From positions 1 to 64,000 of the forward strand of contig JAMNXU010000006.1 in NCBI GenBank assembly GCA_023623175.1: a stretch of 64,000 nt of DNA. Direction: 5' to 3'. Below are positions 510 through 59,653 of this stretch, one piece after another (position 1 is the stretch's first letter; every line of letters begins with the position of its first letter). The notes under the pieces are model-generated. The model was given only the letters and a program-made list of their open reading frames with translations, had not been told where the DNA came from and ran no database searches. A program made the translations under genes and the position numbers. This stretch comes from Bacillota bacterium. GTDB lineage: Bacteria; Bacillota; Clostridia; Acetivibrionales; JAMNXU01.

Positions 510-954
510 CTTTGAATATTTTTCTAATTTCTTCGGATATTTTTCAAATGCAAGGGGTTCATTCTCAAGTGTTTTCTGCTAAATAGTTTCTGCTAATTGG
601 TTTTCTGCCAAACAGGACCCTTAGCCAAAGGTGAAAAATTAGCGTGAGCCCTGATGAAACGGCAAAATGGCATAACACCGGGCACGGAATTACCCTGGAA
701 TGCCGGGACCGGGCATGATAAAACCAAGGCATGGCAGAGCCGGAGTATGTCAATGCCCGGGCAAAGGTAACACTGGTATGGCAATATTTGCACATGTCAC
801 GACCGGGCATAAAAACAGACCGGGTTTAAAAACAGACAGGGTTTAAAAACACCAGAAAATACAGCAAATATCACACCTGGCCGCACAATGCCCTATTAAA
901 TTTTTATACTTGAGATGAAATCAAGCAGAAAACAAGGAAATGCTGAAGAGCCAC
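510..954. other. Spacer between glmS ribozyme and glmS remnant
   Basis: I see no gene here. The stretch has short degenerate repetitions: TTTCTGC motifs at 565-610, CCGGGCAT motifs at 700-810, and a near-exact duplication of GGGTTTAAAAACA at 824-853. A ribozyme-to-start distance of about 450 nt is longer than usual for glmS, so this may be a later insertion or expansion. Confidence 0.5.
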
Positions 955-1091
955 TTAAATACATTCTGTCCCTGTCGTCGCCGACAGGATTTGTAGTATT
1001 TATTCGGTGGTGGCACACCGGAGGGTTTCCGCCGAAAACTTCGATCACTGCCCTCTCCTCGTCAACTAAGGATACACCTTAGTTCTGGCGC
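955..1091 (-). ncRNA. glmS ribozyme: glmS self-cleaving ribozyme (riboswitch)
   Basis: Read on the minus strand, the RNA begins GCGCCAGAACUAAGG, then has the P2 return CCUUAGUUGACGAGGAGAGGG, then AUCGAAGUUUUCGGCGG and CCCUCCGGUGUG. These are the hallmark core blocks of the glmS ribozyme, which cleaves itself when bound to glucosamine-6-phosphate and so shuts off glmS. By homology the cleavage site is between A at 1092 and G+1 at 1091. A 3' hairpin (CCUGUCGGCGACGACAGG) matches the P4 region, and its lower end near 955 is approximate. The core looks intact although the gene it should control, at 137-498, is a remnant. Confidence 0.92.
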
Positions 1092-1170
1092 TTTTATTCA
1101 ATGTCATTTATTAACTGCTGCCCTCCTTTCCGACATTTTCCTCAGCATTTCAAATTCTTGTATATTTTTA

Positions 1171-1260: not shown

Positions 1261-1396
1261 GAGACACAGGGACGGTTCTTCTGGGACACAGGGACGGTTC
1301 TTCTGTCCCACTCTTGACTCACTCTGTCCCGTCTTACCCGATAGAAAAGGGTTTCCTGTCCCACCAGGTGGGACAAGAGAACCGTCCCCTTGTCCC
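1261..1396. repeat. GGGACA-family array A (3 units: +,+,-)
   Basis: The units of the dispersed 27-bp family are at 1261-1282 (truncated, runs directly into the next), 1283-1309 (plus) and 1370-1396 (minus). A looser TGTCCC fragment lies near 1324. The last unit begins 2 bp after the stop codon of the MATE gene at 1399-1401, so the array abuts that gene's 3' end. Opposed units within one array resemble BIME architecture. Confidence 0.9.
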
Positions 1397-2856: not shown

Positions 2857-2876
2857 ACATTCCTCCGACTAATATT

Positions 2877-2975
2877 GGATACGGGGGCAGTTCTTCTGTC
2901 CCGGGACACACGGGACAAGAGGACGGCTTCCCTGGCCTGGCAAAACGGCCGGGTGCTTCCCCTGTCCCAGTGACA
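2877..2975. repeat. Degenerate GGGACA-family array B
   Basis: There is one recognisable plus unit at about 2877-2902 (GGGGGCAG, TTCTTCTGTCCC), followed by decayed copies with GGGACA, GGACGG and CCTGTCCC fragments. It begins about 20 bp upstream of the MATE start codon, so the 5' leader of that gene is largely repeat-derived. Confidence 0.65.
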
Positions 2976-8551: not shown

Positions 8552-8604
8552 AAAAAAGCTGCTCGCCCGAAATATCCGAATAACAGAATATCAGGGCGAA
8601 CAGC
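8552..8604 (-). terminator. T-box regulatory terminator upstream of aspS
   Basis: On the minus strand GCTGTTCGCCCTGA pairs with TTCGGGCGAGCAGC and is followed by TTTTTT (8552-8557). Its 5' arm overlaps the sequence that would form the antiterminator with the T-box motif at 8619-8634, the standard on/off arrangement. Confidence 0.9.
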
Positions 8605-8853
8605 ATTGCTATCGTCCGCGGTACCACCTGAATTACTGTACTCCATTGTACAGTCACTCCTTAGTGTTTGCCGTTGTAACGTACGGCGTTACGTCGCACC
8701 TACTAATCATATGCACGTGCAATATGACTTTCGGATTGAGGCTGGTGAAGTGTTATTCGCATGAATTCACTTTACAGGGTTCTCACCATTCCCCGCTCAC
8801 TGTGAACGATAATTCATGCTACTCCTCTTCGTCATCGCCTTGATATATAATTT
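8552..8853 (-). promoter_or_regulatory. T-box: T-box leader with Asn (AAC) specifier controlling aspS-gatCAB
   Basis: Minus-strand leader RNA. The conserved T-box block AGGUGGUACCGCGGA is at about 8617-8631. The AG-rich Stem I element GGGGAAUGGUGAGAACCC is near 8780-8797. The helix above the specifier loop is exact: GCAUGAAUU (8811-8819) pairs with AAUUCAUGC (8759-8767). The 3' side of the specifier loop reads GAAUAACA before CUUC. Placing the codon in the usual GAA-N-codon-A context gives AAC (8752-8754), an Asn codon; GAA (Glu) sits at 8756-8758. The gene encodes AspRS, but no Asp codon is in the loop. Uncharged tRNA-Asn should stabilise the antiterminator and turn the transamidation operon on. 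Confidence 0.93.
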
Positions 8854-15296: not shown

Positions 15297-15356
15297 GGGA
15301 CACGGGGACGGTTCTCTTGTCCCACCAGCGGGACACAGGGACGGTTCTCCTGTCTC
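15297..15356 (+). repeat. GGGACA-family array C (2 units, +)
   Basis: Units are at 15297-15323 and 15330-15356. They lie 3' of the ABC ATPase gene and antisense to it. With array D (minus) on the other side they bracket the ATPase gene in inward-facing orientation. Confidence 0.92.
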
Positions 15357-16189: not shown

Positions 16190-16281
16190 AGGACAAGGGA
16201 ACCGTCCCTGTGTACCAGGGCTGGGACAAGGGAACCGTCCCCGTGTCCCAACCTGGGACAGGAGAACCGTCCCCGTGTCCC
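16190..16281 (-). repeat. GGGACA-family array D (3 units, -), inside the ABC operon
   Basis: Units are at 16190-16216, 16223-16249 and 16255-16281. The array lies between the permease stop (16328) and the ATPase start (16072). In the mRNA it reads in the G-U-pairing orientation, so it could form a hairpin ladder between the two cistrons. Confidence 0.92.
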
Positions 16282-18090: not shown

Positions 18091-18261
18091 GGGACATTGG
18101 AACGGCATTCTTGGGACACACGGGTGGGACACGGGGACGGTTCTTCTGGGACACGGGGACGGTTCTTCTGTCCCAGCCAGGGACACGGGGACGGTTCTTC
18201 TGTCCCGGCCAGAAGCAGTCGGGTCACGGTAAATGGGACATGGGGACAGTTTACCTGTACC
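18091..18261 (+). repeat. GGGACA-family array E (5 units, +)
   Basis: Units are at 18091-18120 (decayed), 18126-18147 (lacking TGTCCC, fused to the next), 18148-18174, 18180-18206 and 18235-18261 (decayed). The array lies upstream of the ABC permease start, antisense to it, and faces array F across a gene-free 420 bp. Confidence 0.92.
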
Positions 18262-18682: not shown

Positions 18683-18757
18683 GGGACACAGGAACCGTCC
18701 CCATGTCCCGAAAGTGGGACAAGAGAACCGTCCCCGTGTCCCGGTCCCCGTGTCCCG
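18683..18757 (-). repeat. GGGACA-family array F (2.5 units, -)
   Basis: Units are at 18683-18709 and 18716-18742, with a partial unit at 18743-18757. The array ends about 20 bp from the rhaD stop and is in sense orientation to rhaD. Unit 1 is the symmetric subtype with CAGGAACCG. Confidence 0.92.
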
Positions 18758-24332: not shown

Positions 24333-24435
24333 GGGACACGGGCGCGGGACACGGGGACGGTTCTCTTGTCCCAATCCCGGGACACGGGGACGGTTCTCTT
24401 GTCCCGGCATGCATGGGGACCGTTCTCTTTCCAGG
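24333..24435 (+). repeat. GGGACA-family array G (3-4 units, +)
   Basis: There is a partial unit at 24333-24345, full units at 24346-24372 and 24379-24405, and a decayed one at 24412-24435. It lies upstream of the flavodiiron gene, antisense to it, and faces array H across 75 bp. Confidence 0.92.
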
Positions 24436-24510: not shown

Positions 24511-24590
24511 GGGACACAGGAACCGTCCCCGTGTCCTAGGAACCGTCCCCATGTCCCACCCATGGTACGCAGGAACCGTCCCCGTGTCCC
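24511..24590 (-). repeat. GGGACA-family array H (3 units, -)
   Basis: Units are at 24511-24537, 24538-24557 (partial) and 24564-24590, all of the symmetric CAGGAACCG subtype. The array lies 28 bp after the TetR stop and in sense orientation to it. Confidence 0.92.
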
Positions 24591-27725: not shown

Positions 27726-29276
27726 ATGAAACATATAAAGAGGGTTCTCTCATTTGCATTAATTCTTACACTGTTACTGATACAAACCGTTCCGTCATCG
27801 GCGGAAAACAACTCTCCGTCAAAAACCCCGTCTCTGAAAGAGGAAGTCATTTACGGAATTCTTAATCTTGATGGAAGTGTTGACAACCTGTACGCTGTGA
27901 ATGTTTTTGACGGCGGAGAAATCATCGATTACGGTCGTTATTCCGAAGTTCGGAACCTGACTACGTCCGAGAAGATAAACGTCAATGATGATGAAATTAC
28001 CATCAGCACTGAAGCCGAAAGGTTCTATTACCAGGGAACGCTTGAAAACCGCGAACTTCCGTGGGATATTGCCATCAAATACTTCCTGGACGGTGAAGAA
28101 ATATCCGGGCAGGATCTCGGCGGCAAAAGCGGCGCCCTGAGGATTGAAATGTCCGTTAAAAGAAATAAAAAAGTCAACAGCATCTTTTTCGACAATTATG
28201 CCCTGCAGGTCACATTCTCGCTGGACAGCAGGCTGTGTACCGGCATAAAGGCTGAAAATGCCACGATAGCCGAAGCAGGAAGCAAAAAGCAGCTCGCCTA
28301 CACCATTCTGCCGGGCAACGATGCAAATATCGTCGTTGAAGCAGATGTTCGGGATTTTGAAATGGATCCGGTTACCATAAACGGCATCAGGCTCGCTCTT
28401 AATTTGAATGTAGACAGCAGCGCATTTTCCGAACAGATTTCCGAACTTGCCAAGGCCGTAAAAAGCCTTGATGACGGGGCTTCTGAACTGCTAAACGGTG
28501 TCAGCAGCCTGTCGGACGGCATGCAAAAATACATCAATGGGCTGAAAGCCTTCAGGGATGGGCTTGTACAGCTCTCCGCGGGCACAGATAAACTGGACGC
28601 GGGAGCGTCTCAGATAAAGCAAGGTCTATCCGAACTGGCAAAGCAAAATGACTCTCTGATGGCCGGTGCGCTGGCGATACAGCAGGCCGTGTTTGATACC
28701 GTCAATTCAAGGCTTGCCGGGTTTGGATTGCCTTCCCTCACGCCCGAAAACTACGGCGCGGTGTTATCATCGGTTCCCGGTCTCGAAACCGTCAAAACTC
28801 AGCTTGACGGTGTAATCCAGTTTACTCAGGGGCTTAAAAGCTATCTCGACGGAGTGGCCAAACTTGATGACGGAGCTTCACAGCTGGTGTCTGGAATTTC
28901 TGAGTTCAAAAATTCCGCCTCGACAATAACAGCCGCGGCTAATGAACTTTACGACGGCGGAGCAGAATTGAACGCCGCCGTTAAGAAGCTGCGCGACGGC
29001 CTTGCTTCCTACAGGGCAGGAACGCGAAAGCTTAAGGAAGGCACAACGGGCATGGATTCTGAAATAGATAAAAAGATTAATGAAATCCTCTCCGGCATTT
29101 TCGGTGAAAATAAAACGGCATCTTTTGTATCAGAAAAAAACACCAACGTATCTGCCGTTCAATTCGTGCTTAAGACAAAACCCGTAAACGCGCCCGAAAT
29201 TCCAAAAACCCCCAATGAGCAGCCCGCAAAACTGAACTTCTGGCAAAAGCTGCTCAAACTCTTCGGCCTCCTGTGA
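27726..29276 (+). CDS. Secreted coiled-coil protein (YhgE-like repeats), MMPL partner
   Basis: There are 516 residues. A signal peptide MKHIKRVLSFALILTLLLIQ ends near PSSA-E (about 27). Residues 30-210 form a beta-rich domain of unknown type. Residues about 220-440 carry the LxDGAxxLxxGxxxLxxG heptad-like repeats seen in YhgE/Pip proteins (LDDGASELLNG, LSDGMQKYING, LDAGASQIKQG, LDDGASQLVSG, LYDGGAELN). It ends in a basic-hydrophobic helix FWQKLLKLFGLL. GGAGGAG lies 7 nt before ATG 27726. Co-directional placement after MMPL suggests an extracytoplasmic partner of that transporter. This is inferred from context. Confidence 0.85.
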   Translation: MKHIKRVLSFALILTLLLIQTVPSSAENNSPSKTPSLKEEVIYGILNLDGSVDNLYAVNVFDGGEIIDYGRYSEVRNLTTSEKINVNDDEITISTEAERFYYQGTLENRELPWDIAIKYFLDGEEISGQDLGGKSGALRIEMSVKRNKKVNSIFFDNYALQVTFSLDSRLCTGIKAENATIAEAGSKKQLAYTILPGNDANIVVEADVRDFEMDPVTINGIRLALNLNVDSSAFSEQISELAKAVKSLDDGASELLNGVSSLSDGMQKYINGLKAFRDGLVQLSAGTDKLDAGASQIKQGLSELAKQNDSLMAGALAIQQAVFDTVNSRLAGFGLPSLTPENYGAVLSSVPGLETVKTQLDGVIQFTQGLKSYLDGVAKLDDGASQLVSGISEFKNSASTITAAANELYDGGAELNAAVKKLRDGLASYRAGTRKLKEGTTGMDSEIDKKINEILSGIFGENKTASFVSEKNTNVSAVQFVLKTKPVNAPEIPKTPNEQPAKLNFWQKLLKLFGLL

Positions 29277-29327
29277 GACGCCGGTACGGCTGTCCCGTCC
29301 GGTCTCACGGACCAAGGGTGCCTATCA

Positions 29328-29428
29328 GGGACACGGGGACGGTTCTTTGTCCCACTCCCGGGACACGGGGACGGTTCTCTTGTCCCGGTTCCAATACATG
29401 CGGGACTCAGGGACGGTTCTCCCATCCC
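29328..29428 (+). repeat. GGGACA-family array I (3 units, +)
   Basis: Units are at 29328-29353 (26 bp), 29360-29386 and 29402-29428 (diverged). The array lies 50 bp after the stop of the secreted protein and in sense with it. Confidence 0.92.
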
Positions 29429-29573
29429 ACCCTCGAGTTCCCAGATTATCAATGATTCAAAAGGCATGATTTTAAGCAATTTCTCAAAATAATGCCTTTT
29501 TGTTGACATTTTGGTCTATAAGTTATAAACTAAGCTCCTCGGCCTGCTGCCTGCTCAATTTTCAATCCGCTCA

Positions 29574-30992: not shown

Positions 30993-31052
30993 GGGACACG
31001 GGGACGGTTCTTCTGTCCCACTCCCGGGACACGGGGACGGTTCTCCTGTCCC
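30993..31052 (+). repeat. GGGACA-family array J (2 units, +), 3' of RAYT
   Basis: Units are at 30993-31019 and 31026-31052, both near-perfect. The array lies 87 bp from the RAYT stop. With array K (minus) it brackets the RAYT gene in inward orientation. Confidence 0.95.
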
Positions 31053-31138
31053 AAATGAGAACAATTACCCTTTCAATTTTAGTAAAGCAGAAATTAGCCC
31101 AAGTTCCTATCATGCTAAAAACGGATTATCAAAAATTC

Positions 31139-31921
31139 TCATTTGCTCAGGATTCTGTATACCTTGTTTTTGTTTAAGCCAGTGACAACTGAAATTTGCC
31201 TCCCTGACAAGTTGGTCTTTTCCTTGAACATTTTAATCAAACCTTCAGAAATTTCCTCAGACTTGATAAATCTATTGTGAATCCCTTCTTCCACTAGCAT
31301 CTCGTGAAACAATTTCCGCGCTTCTTCTTCATCCATGACCTGTTCATCGTTAATGTCAATAAAATTCTCACTGCAATCCTCGTTCATATACTTTTTGTAT
31401 CTTCTGATAGCTTCATTTCTGTCTTTGGCAAATAAACTGAGAATGGTATCAGTATTTAATAAATGGCTAAAATAGTGATTAGTATTTATATAGCAATTAT
31501 AGCTGCTCCACTTGTAATCAGCTGCTCTTTCAACCATGCCCGCTTTTACCGGGTTTTGATGTATATATCTCACCAAAGCTAACAGGTAACTTTCCTGATC
31601 CACCGCTTCACTCCTAAACCTGTCCTGGAACAAATGCCCTACTCTCTTATATTTTTTGTTAAAATAATGAACATAACTTACAGTAATACGTTTTATTACT
31701 GTAGCTATATCCTCTTTCATTTCACTTAACAATAAATGAACGTGATTGTCCATGAGACAAAAAGCATGAAGATGGAACTTGTCTCCCGTCTTCTTTGCAG
31801 ATAAGATTTCCATAAACCGAAGTTTATCTTCATCGTTTCTAAATATGTTGCTTCTCTCATTTCCTCGCAACATTATATGATAATATCCACTGATACTTTT
31901 AATACGCTTTTGCCTTGGCAT
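31139..31921 (-). CDS. REP-associated tyrosine transposase (RAYT, Y1_Tnp/IS200-like HUH family)
   Basis: This 260-residue protein opens MPRQKRIKSISGYYHIMLRGNERSNIFR, the standard RAYT N terminus. The HUH motif is FCLMDNHVHLLLS (His60, His62), and candidate nucleophile tyrosines lie in ESYLLALVRYIHQNPVKAG (Tyr112, Tyr119). VGHLFQDRFRSE and YKWSSYNCYI are family blocks. The C terminus (about 235-258, SGRQISVVTGLNKNKVYRIL) is a helix-turn-helix often found in Firmicute members. RAYTs cut single-stranded REP hairpins and are domesticated single-copy genes. Start 31921 has AAAGGG 7 nt upstream. No IS ends were seen; GGGACA-family arrays flank it on both sides. Confidence 0.93.
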   Translation of the reverse strand: MPRQKRIKSISGYYHIMLRGNERSNIFRNDEDKLRFMEILSAKKTGDKFHLHAFCLMDNHVHLLLSEMKEDIATVIKRITVSYVHYFNKKYKRVGHLFQDRFRSEAVDQESYLLALVRYIHQNPVKAGMVERAADYKWSSYNCYINTNHYFSHLLNTDTILSLFAKDRNEAIRRYKKYMNEDCSENFIDINDEQVMDEEEARKLFHEMLVEEGIHNRFIKSEEISEGLIKMFKEKTNLSGRQISVVTGLNKNKVYRILSK

Positions 31922-31936
31922 ACCATACCCTTTCAA

Positions 31937-32448
31937 AATTTAACATTTTAATCTTTGCCAATATTTTACTAGGTAATTGCAAGGTTGTCAATATTTGTAA
32001 ATTTATAGTAGTCTGTTTTTATTTTGTATATAATATCTTTTCCGAAAATTTCTATTTACCTAAACTTTTAACTCTTCATTTTGCTGTTTTTTTATTAATA
32101 TAAATGATAAATTTATAATGTCTTATTAAAGAGTCATCAGTAATTTTAAGAAATGGAATTTTTTAAGAAAGGTAGAATAATCGCATGATTAAGATAATGG
32201 TACAAGAATGTACCTGATTTTATAAAAATCCGCTGCCATATCCCTGTAAATATCGAAAGGTTGGTAACAACACAATATTTCAATTATGAACAATCCAATA
32301 ATAGTCTTCACATCAAATATCTACACAAATTATGAGTAATTCTCTGTACACAGTTTAAACAAAAGGATCCCTGTTATATTTGAGTACAGTTGAGTAACAA
32401 TGCTTTTCCATAATTCGCAAGTTGATATAAATTGATATGTGATAAAGT
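31937..32448. other. AT-rich spacer upstream of RAYT
   Basis: No gene or clear motif in about 510 nt. The RAYT promoter must be near 31940-32100, where several TATAAT-like boxes occur without a clear partner. Confidence 0.5.
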
Positions 32449-32541
32449 GGGACAAGAGAACCGTCTCCATGTCCCGGGTGTGGGACAAGAGAACCGTCCC
32501 CGTGTCCCAAATGTGGGACAGGAGAACCGTCCCCGTGTCCC
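32449..32541 (-). repeat. GGGACA-family array K (3 units, -), 5' of RAYT
   Basis: Units are at 32449-32475, 32482-32508 and 32515-32541. Spacing between units is 6 bp. Orientation is opposite to array J on the other side of RAYT. Confidence 0.95.
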
Positions 32542-32694
32542 AACCGTATCTCACTTGACAGAGTTTCCCCGAGAATAATAATATTAAAAGCAAAATAAGC
32601 CTGAGGCATGAAGAAGGACGCAGCCTGTTGAAAGGCGCACTGTTTCTGAATCAGACTGGGCCGAAAAACAGCAATCGTTGACGGAGGATTATTT

Positions 32695-33867
32695 ATGTAC
32701 AATTTCGATGAAATAATTAAGCGTCACGGCACCAATTCACTAAAATACGATTTTGCCGCAAAAAGGGGTATGCCCGTGGACGCGCTTCCTTTCTGGGTGG
32801 CTGACATGGATTTCAAATCTCCGCCGGAAGTTCTCGAGGCAATGTCAAAACGAATCAGCCACGGTATTTTCGGTTACAGTGATATCGATGAATCCTATTT
32901 TAACGCAATTTTTAAATGGTACGACAAAAGGTTCAACTGGAAGATCCAGCCCGAATGGCTTGCAGTATCACCCGGAGTGGTCTTTTCCATCTGCACGGCC
33001 ATACGCGCCCTGACAAATCCCGGTGACGCGGTTATGATCCAGCAGCCGGTGTATTACCCTTTCGAAAGCTCAGTTAAAGTCAATAACCGCCGTCTTGTCA
33101 TCAACCGCCTGCTTTACCGCGACGGAAGGTACGGGATAGATTTTGATGAATTTGAACGGCTAATAGCGGAGGAAAAAGTCAGGCTGTTTATCCTGTGCAG
33201 TCCCCACAACCCCGTCGGACGTGTCTGGACAGCGGAAGAACTGACGCGGATGGGCGATATTTGCGTCAGGCACGGAGTGTATGTTATTTCTGACGAGATA
33301 CACCAGGACTTCGTGTATCCCGGATACAGGCATACGGTGTTTGCAGGTCTTAAACCGGAATATGCCGATATCACAATTACCTGCACAGCTCCGTCCAAGA
33401 CATTCAACCTGCCGGGACTGCAGGTTTCAAACATATTTATAAGCAACCCGGAGATTCGCCGGCTGTTCAATGAAGAATTCAGGAGAACCGGTTACAGCCA
33501 GCCCAACCTTATGGGAATGATCGCCTGCCAGGCCGCCTATGAAAAAGGCGAGCAATGGCTCGATGAGCTGATTTGCTATTTGGCCGGAAACCTTGAACTT
33601 GTCCGTAAATTCCTGTCCGATGAACTGCCTGCTATCTACATGGTAGAGCCGGAAGGCACCTATCTTGTATGGCTTGATTTCAGTAAACTTGGACTCCCTG
33701 ACAGGGAACTGGAACGCCTGCTTGTGCAAAAAGCGAAAATCTGGCTGTCGTCAGGGCCGACTTTCGGAGCCGGAGGCCAGGGTTTTCAGCGTTTTAATAT
33801 AGGCTGCCCCCGCGCAGTTCTGCAACAGGGTCTTGATCGCCTGAAGAAGGCAATTAAGGAAATTTAA
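32695..33867 (+). CDS. MalY/PatB family PLP enzyme (cystathionine beta-lyase-like aminotransferase)
   Basis: This 390-residue fold-type I PLP enzyme has DALPFWVADMDFKSPPEV near 26 (the MalY/PatB signature), SPGVVFSICTAIRALT near 95, CSPHNPVGRVW near 165, SDEIHQDFVY near 200 and the PLP lysine in TCTAPSKTFNLPGLQ (Lys near 234). Members cleave cystathionine or cysteine conjugates, or act as aminotransferases. GGAGG lies 7 nt before ATG. Array K and the RAYT gene lie upstream; the rhamnosidase follows after 83 nt and could be co-transcribed. Confidence 0.93.
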   Translation: MYNFDEIIKRHGTNSLKYDFAAKRGMPVDALPFWVADMDFKSPPEVLEAMSKRISHGIFGYSDIDESYFNAIFKWYDKRFNWKIQPEWLAVSPGVVFSICTAIRALTNPGDAVMIQQPVYYPFESSVKVNNRRLVINRLLYRDGRYGIDFDEFERLIAEEKVRLFILCSPHNPVGRVWTAEELTRMGDICVRHGVYVISDEIHQDFVYPGYRHTVFAGLKPEYADITITCTAPSKTFNLPGLQVSNIFISNPEIRRLFNEEFRRTGYSQPNLMGMIACQAAYEKGEQWLDELICYLAGNLELVRKFLSDELPAIYMVEPEGTYLVWLDFSKLGLPDRELERLLVQKAKIWLSSGPTFGAGGQGFQRFNIGCPRAVLQQGLDRLKKAIKEI

Positions 33868-41158: not shown

Positions 41159-41250
41159 GGTGACACGGGGACGGTTCTCCTGTCCCGCATTGGGACACGG
41201 GGACGGTTCTCCTGTCCCAATTTGGGACAAGGGGACGGTTCTCTTGTCCC
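41159..41250 (+). repeat. GGGACA-family array L (3 units, +)
   Basis: Units are at 41159-41186, 41192-41218 and 41224-41250. It faces array M across 84 bp. Confidence 0.93.
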
Positions 41251-41334: not shown

Positions 41335-41441
41335 GGGACACAGGAACCGTCCCTCTGTCCCTCCTCAGACGCAGGAACCGTCCCCGTGTCCCACCAGGAA
41401 CGTCCCCGTGTCCCACCCAGGTTGGAATCGTCCCTCTGTCC
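41335..41441 (-). repeat. GGGACA-family array M (4 units, -)
   Basis: Units are at 41335-41361, 41366-41392, 41396-41414 (short) and 41421-41441 (diverged), with the CAGGAACCG subtype dominant. It lies about 100 bp upstream of the glycyl radical enzyme gene. Confidence 0.9.
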
Positions 41442-44684: not shown

Positions 44685-44792
44685 GGGACACGGGGACTTT
44701 GGGACACGGGGACGGTTCTCCTGTCCCAATTTGGGACACGGGGACGGTTCTCTTGTCCCAATTCAGGGACATGGTGACGGTTCTTCTGTCCC
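44685..44792 (+). repeat. GGGACA-family array N (4 units, +)
   Basis: There is a partial unit at 44685-44700, full units at 44701-44727 and 44733-44759, and a diverged unit at 44766-44792. With array M it flanks the glycyl radical enzyme/activase pair, pointing outward. Confidence 0.92.
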
Positions 44793-49557: not shown

Positions 49558-49598
49558 GGGACACGGGGACTGGGACAGGGGGACGGTTCTCCTGTCCC
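49558..49598 (+). repeat. GGGACA-family array O (1.5 units, +)
   Basis: There is a partial unit at 49558-49570 and a full unit at 49572-49598, ending 10 bp from the stop of the membrane-protein gene. Confidence 0.9.
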
Positions 49599-55153: not shown

Positions 55154-55249
55154 GGGACACGGGGACGGTTCTGATGGGACACGGGGACTGATGGGACACG
55201 GGGACGGTTCTCATGTCCCGCGACAAGGGGACGCTAACCGTACCCGTCC
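55154..55249 (+). repeat. GGGACA-family array P (3-4 units, +)
   Basis: There are truncated units at 55154-55172 and 55176-55191, a full unit at 55193-55219, and a decayed one to about 55249. It is in sense with the methyltransferase gene. Confidence 0.88.
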
Positions 55250-58069: not shown

Positions 58070-58127
58070 GGGACACGGGGACGGTTCTCCTGTCCCACCC
58101 GGGACACGGGGACGGTTCTCCTGTCCC
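58070..58127 (+). repeat. GGGACA-family array Q (2 units, +)
   Basis: Units are at 58070-58096 and 58101-58127, both near-perfect. They lie 65 bp from the stop of plsC and antisense to it. Confidence 0.93.
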
Positions 58128-59626: not shown

Positions 59627-59653
59627 GGGACAAGAGAACCGTCCCCGTGTCCC
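59627..59653 (-). repeat. GGGACA-family unit R (1 unit, -)
   Basis: A single full unit sits between the regulator pseudogene and the transketolase C-half stop (12 bp away). It is opposite in orientation to array Q. Confidence 0.93.

Follow-up and report, generated by a model that had tools for sequence, protein, structure and literature searches.

A transposase gene and a dispersed hairpin repeat that lie together in a Clostridium-type genome probably form a single system, in which a REP-associated tyrosine transposase (RAYT) of the HUH/Y1 type, acting on single-stranded DNA, has its own family of hairpin repeats. Most of what is known of RAYT-REP systems comes from Proteobacteria; the preliminary description had proposed an equivalent system here, a proposal that is supported by the co-occurrence of gene and repeat among genomes, by the flanks of related genes and by the co-variation of RAYTs with their hairpins. 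‘Equivalent’ must be taken as similar in logic and not as the same family, because the protein appears to belong to another branch of RAYTs and the repeat has no GTAG foot. From association, specificity and fold we infer that the RAYT mobilises the units, and the ensemble suggests that the hairpins dispersed in the host genome were spread by this protein. The stretch analysed (the window) covers 64 kb of contig C30, in a genome of 2.85 Mb and 39 contigs.

The RAYT gene of the window is an intact open reading frame, as previously described, and its product matches PF01797 (63.4 bits) and the NCBIfam family NF047646 ‘REP-associated tyrosine transposase’ (83.6 bits, cut-off 80). It consists of a Y1 HUH transposase core followed by a C-terminal helical/HTH-like domain, with the HUH motif NHVH at residues 59-62 and the catalytic Tyr119 within YIHQNP; H60, H62 and Y119 are invariant in two alignments comprising 20 and 45 relatives. 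The AlphaFold model (pLDDT 92) likewise displays a Y1 core and then extra C-terminal helices (222-259), and its best PDB match by Foldseek is 4er8 (E = 1.7e-7, TM 0.75 by target length), i.e., the E. coli RAYT in complex with a REP hairpin, which phmmer also relates to the window protein (1.1e-5). An HUH motif with a single catalytic tyrosine, a Y1 fold like that of TnpAREP and a gene flanked by a hairpin family dispersed in the host genome are thus all present, as in RAYTs. NHVH, FQ, Y[IV]HxNP and the C-terminal HTH-like domain are those of subclass 2.1, or RAYT group 1, and by these motifs the protein fits subclass 2.1/group 1/TIRYT, on a branch apparently different from that of the gammaproteobacterial REP partners.

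Two further, distant Y1 transposase genes exist in the same genome (contigs C39 and C19) and were rejected as partners of the repeat, having no units within 1.5 kb and being members of another subfamily, whose proteins have ~310 aa and whose core differs. Loci of this second subfamily in the order include L032 and L033, and several of its members carry a different inverted core, GGGGACGCTCCT.

The unit of the window genome reads GGGACACGGGGACGGTTCTCCTGTCCC, and its conserved part, GGGGACGGTTC, is apical. With up to 3 mismatches, 226 copies were found genome-wide and none with the reversed-pattern control, so that the dispersed family announced by the preliminary description is real, but its estimate of about 45 units in the window has to be lowered to 37, in about 19 arrays; the units on both sides of the RAYT lie exactly at the positions reported (Table 1). 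The core count of this genome (239) is the highest among 207 genomes surveyed, the next being 162. Tandem arrays have a period of about 32-33 bp, and the 42 arrays sampled comprise 24 direct multi-unit arrays, 17 single units and 1 mixed array. The units of another genome, G048 (L289-L297), are inverted doublets with a palindromic interior, where the window genome has tandem arrays instead.

Placement statistics for the genome were drawn from 464 kb. Units are mostly intergenic. By gene context, the gaps of the sample that hold units number 16 of 230 (tandem), 7 of 72 (convergent) and 3 of 60 (divergent). No constant tetranucleotide was found beside the units, and the unit also lacks the GT[AG]G foot that defines GTAG REPs. 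Their density is 37 per 64 kb in the window and 36 per 400 kb in the regions sampled elsewhere, i.e., about six times higher in the window, and local spread near the RAYT is possible. An Rfam search of the window retrieved no family for the units, the only matches being a glmS riboswitch (946-1103, minus strand) and a T-box leader (8589-8844, minus strand), and none of the papers searched gives the unit sequence in a relevant context. Two regions with arrays (29159-29509 and 32330-32702) read as spurious open reading frames with peptides such as GTVLLSH and RTVPVS, and unit arrays probably give rise to erroneous gene predictions.

Table 1. The RAYT gene, its predicted promoter and the hairpin units of the window.
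Feature	Position	Strand	Evidence
Inward pair, one plus and one minus unit	1283-1396	.	Unit search
Degenerate unit	2876-2902	+	Unit search
2-unit array	15297-15356	+	
3-unit array	16190-16281	-	
2 units and a degenerate unit	18148-18261	+	
2-unit array	18683-18742	-	
2-unit array	24346-24405	+	
2 divergent units	24511-24590	-	
2-3-unit array	29328-29428	+	
2 inward-facing units, 3' of the RAYT	30993-31019, 31026-31052	+	Unit search
RAYT gene, 260 aa	31139-31921	-	ORF; PF01797; NF047646
Predicted RAYT promoter (without a unit here, unlike relatives)	31963-31991	-	Sequence
3 inward-facing units, 5' of the RAYT	32449-32475, 32482-32508, 32515-32541	-	Unit search
3-unit array	41160-41250	+	
2 divergent units	41335-41392	-	
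3-unit array	44701-44792	+	
Single unit	49572-49598	+	
2-unit array	55154-55219	+	
2-unit array, both exact consensus	58070-58127	+	
Single unit	59627-59653	-	

The units nearest to the window RAYT are located 86 bp past its stop codon and 528 bp before its start codon. Bracketing as tight as this was obtained for 78 of 81,077 random 783-bp segments of the window (0.1%), and 678 of them (0.8%) had inward units on either side at no more than 540 bp. In a 400-kb sample from other parts of the genome, none of 192,417 draws was bracketed so tightly, part of the bracketing being due to the sixfold higher unit density of the window. The end positions used by relatives hold no unit at the window RAYT: the inward terminal repeats near the gene ends that characterise TIRYTs are found in most clade-A relatives and are missing here. 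Since canonical units are absent, this RAYT is paired with the repeat on the strength of its clade and of the distant brackets. An insertion was considered as the cause of the 526-bp gap to the 5' array; the intervening stretch is unique in the genome, so that no repeated element could be shown.

The window RAYT is in this respect an exception among its relatives. The sample consisted of the RAYT loci of the order and of 80 named loci, mostly from Bacillota (including Thermoanaerobacter, Pelosinus, Alkaliphilus and Bacillus) and with one from Bacteroidota (Xylanibacter), among which 110 loci had enough flanking sequence. An inward core lies within 110 bp upstream in 65 of these 110 loci (59%, as opposed to 2.6% of control windows) and a reverse core near the stop codon in 71 (65%, as opposed to 1.6%), 51 loci having inward cores at both ends, while wrongly oriented cores were met 6 and 15 times. 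The enrichment at RAYT flanks anticipated by the preliminary description is therefore present on both sides. The upstream core usually starts ~60-70 bp ahead of the start codon and the downstream hairpin usually abuts or overlaps the stop codon, and all bracketing hairpins have in common the core GGGGACGGTTCT and close variants of it. A relative from Peptococcaceae (L164, 51% identity) likewise has units farther from the gene, with a GGGACA stem, and its downstream side carries a tandem array. The member of the group from Xylanibacter ruminicola (L233) has a bracket with the core GGGACAGG, and its presence in Bacteroidota hints at a transfer between phyla.

Repeat and RAYT also occur in the same genomes. 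Among 58 genomes of the order, 23 have both at least 5 core copies and a RAYT, 25 have neither, and 5 + 5 are discordant (p = 9e-7), and the association persists when the RAYT-free family f4 is removed (p = 2e-4). Among 149 genomes of the class outside the order, the counts (both, the two discordant classes, neither) are 25/10/24/90 (p = 8e-8). These tests take genomes as independent, and the perfect split inside family f13 (14 genomes, 5/0/0/9) partly guards against an effect of shared ancestry. The link is strong and not absolute, because in about 15 genomes with at least 5 cores no RAYT was detected, which loss of the gene or a failure to detect it would explain. Two orthologous intergenic sites were compared within one genus. 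The RAYT carriers G031 and G052 have, respectively, 2 and 1 units at the first site and 1 and 2 at the second, and the same sites are free of units in the RAYT-free congeners G024, G045, G055 (which aligned poorly at the first site) and G056. As read from these alignments, the pattern fits a gain of units in the RAYT-bearing lineage and a later tandem change, loss being also possible; a third such locus (L284) was uninformative.

The hairpins moreover vary with the RAYT, a co-variation for which the preliminary description had proposed a test. A tree groups RAYTs according to the stem of their hairpin, i.e., GACA/TGTC (the clade of the window), GAAGC/GCTTC, AACAG/CTGTT and TGTCA/TGACA, and also sets apart the core variant mentioned above for Xylanibacter. 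The nearest RAYTs to that of the window (54-61% identity), from G137, G179, G048, G006 and T. wiegelii, all have GACA/TGTC stems, the class to which the window units belong. A stem arm forms on average 5.47 bp with its own partner and 3.74 bp with partners from other RAYTs, a difference reached in 0 of 20,000 shuffles. Stem difference rises with RAYT protein distance (Mantel r = 0.25, 0 of 5000 permutations), a correlation that partly reflects shared descent, since at the RAYT locus the hairpin is inherited along with the adjoining gene. Unlinked units, which for this reason provide the stronger test, carry the stem of a resident RAYT in a mean fraction of 0.74 of those sampled, vs 0.27 after permutation of the residents (seven genomes, 4 of 5040 permutations as high). 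The match extends to 17 of 17 unlinked units in G035, 24 of 25 in G048 and 11 of 12 in G007, and G042 possesses three RAYTs and three matching unit families (23 of 26 unlinked units match), all per-genome counts being approximate since stem classes were set by simple patterns. G137 is a counter-example, only 3 of 18 sampled units matching its detected RAYT, and G031 has a second unit family without a detected RAYT partner. In the 5.5-Mb genome G179 (C1), 14 RAYT matches were found, several of them nearly alike and perhaps representing a multicopy form.

The 5' hairpin of relatives frequently touches the promoter. A recognisable sigma-70 promoter follows just 3' of the core in 29 of the 66 RAYTs with a 5' core, the expectation from mononucleotide shuffles being 3.4 (maximum 8), and in 24 of these 29 (L162-L241 and others) the -35 box (TTGACA) starts 3-10 nt past the core. 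The 5' unit is thus adjacent to the promoter or shares bases with it, and since it touches the -35 box in many relatives, the RAYT may repress its own gene through this unit, a hypothesis derived from the layout of the sites. The promoter predicted for the window RAYT comprises TTGACA (31986-31991), a 17-bp spacer and TAAAAT (31963-31968), and its 5' unit has presumably been lost. A bolder model, which we put forward with considerable reserve, would give the RAYTs of group 1 in Bacillota a two-part address, where the apical core denotes the class and the clade stem provides specificity, and would make the 5' hairpin an operator, the loss of which would free the RAYT from control and allow its repeat family to grow. 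The window RAYT, having a promoter without a 5' unit in the genome with the most cores, is a single case that proves nothing in this respect.

Other explanations can be considered for this body of evidence. The units might be the ends of an ordinary insertion sequence that moves as a whole, the dispersed ones being its deletion derivatives (MITEs or solo ends), an explanation we regard as unlikely. Such an element would account for terminal repeats that point inward and keep a constant spacing to the gene, for the inverted unit pairs of G048 and G007, which resemble gene-less elements, and for the several similar RAYT copies of G010, G026 and G179. However, most genomes have one or a few divergent RAYTs and yet tens to hundreds of units, and the window genome combines a single RAYT of the clade with 226 units, which stand mostly in tandem or alone and not in inverted pairs; no multicopy RAYT-unit element was seen there.

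It is very improbable that the repeat spreads by other means (slippage, recombination or another transposase) and that the RAYT lies among units by chance, given that oriented brackets recur in 51 of 110 RAYT loci across Bacillota, that the stems of unlinked units match the resident RAYTs and that co-occurrence is seen in two separate samples. Slippage or recombination may nevertheless enlarge tandem arrays, whose copy number differs at orthologous sites; some genomes carry units without a RAYT, and the high repeat density around the window RAYT raises the chance of bracketing. Units could finally be maintained mainly for a host function, as 3'-end RNA hairpins, terminators or protein-binding sites, with the RAYT as a maintenance partner that is domesticated and not selfish. 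RAYTs have indeed been described as domesticated transposases (PMC8266576), the units are mostly intergenic, and one of the orthologous sites has them downstream of a stop codon and ahead of a hairpin that resembles a terminator. This account is quite improbable all the same: the gene context of units shows no strong enrichment in the sample of tandem, convergent and divergent gaps, unit sites are not conserved in RAYT-free congeners, and no Rfam family matches the units.

The reading of a RAYT with its own hairpin family would imply that the hairpin is recognised by the protein in its single-stranded form, the core serving as the common determinant and the stem as the clade-specific one, and that the protein nicks and joins the hairpin via Tyr119. 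Units would thereby be copied or moved to new intergenic sites, tandem arrays would then grow through repeated joining or recombination, and the family could in this way have reached 226 copies in the window genome.

Several known systems resemble this one, the nearest being TIRYTs/TIRtrons and, as regards logic, REPtrons. According to the text of Di Nocera et al. 2013 (PMC3733652), TIRYTs, or TIRtrons, are Y1 tyrosine transposase genes with flanking inverted repeats (TIRs), several of which share the motif GGGGWSAS and some of which form moderately abundant dispersed families, including dimers or clusters; the text of that paper, figures aside, contains neither ‘Firmicutes’ nor ‘Clostridi’. 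A flanked Y1 gene, a motif placed comparably far from it and a dispersed family are found here too, but the core is usually GGGGACGG, with G and not A at motif position 7, where the window core thus departs from GGGGWSAS (the GGGGACAG of some relatives fits it), and the stems are self-complementary and specific to RAYT clades, with copies up to 226. In REPtrons (TnpAREP/RAYT and GTAG REPs of E. coli, Pseudomonas and Stenotrophomonas), stem and loop are the recognition features (PMC8266576, PMC2817692). The likeness lies in one RAYT gene per hairpin family, as opposed to a multicopy insertion sequence, in the bracketed gene, in hundreds of dispersed intergenic hairpins and in the same core fold (4er8), whereas here there is no GTAG foot, the conserved sequence is apical and a further domain follows at the C-terminus of the protein. 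Inverted doublets in G048 and G007 recall REPINs (Bertels and Rainey 2011, PMC3116915); the window genome, in contrast, has mostly direct tandem arrays and single units instead of a mobile form made of inverted pairs.

By its motifs, the protein resembles those of TnpAY1 subclass 2.1 (RAYT group 1), with which it shares NHVH, FQ, YIHxNP, a length of ~240-260 aa and the C-terminal HTH-like extension, and whose survey reported no REP-like sequences beside the genes (Quentin et al. 2018, PMC6006769). In contrast with that report, between about half and two thirds of the members from Bacillota studied here have flanking hairpins, and most loci have them at one end at least. A large group reported to be without REP-like partners is thus accompanied throughout Bacillota by hairpins in which the core is conserved and the stems are interchangeable, and the dozens of natural RAYT-hairpin pairs that it offers, several of them inside single genomes, make specificity, repeat spread and autoregulation directly testable.
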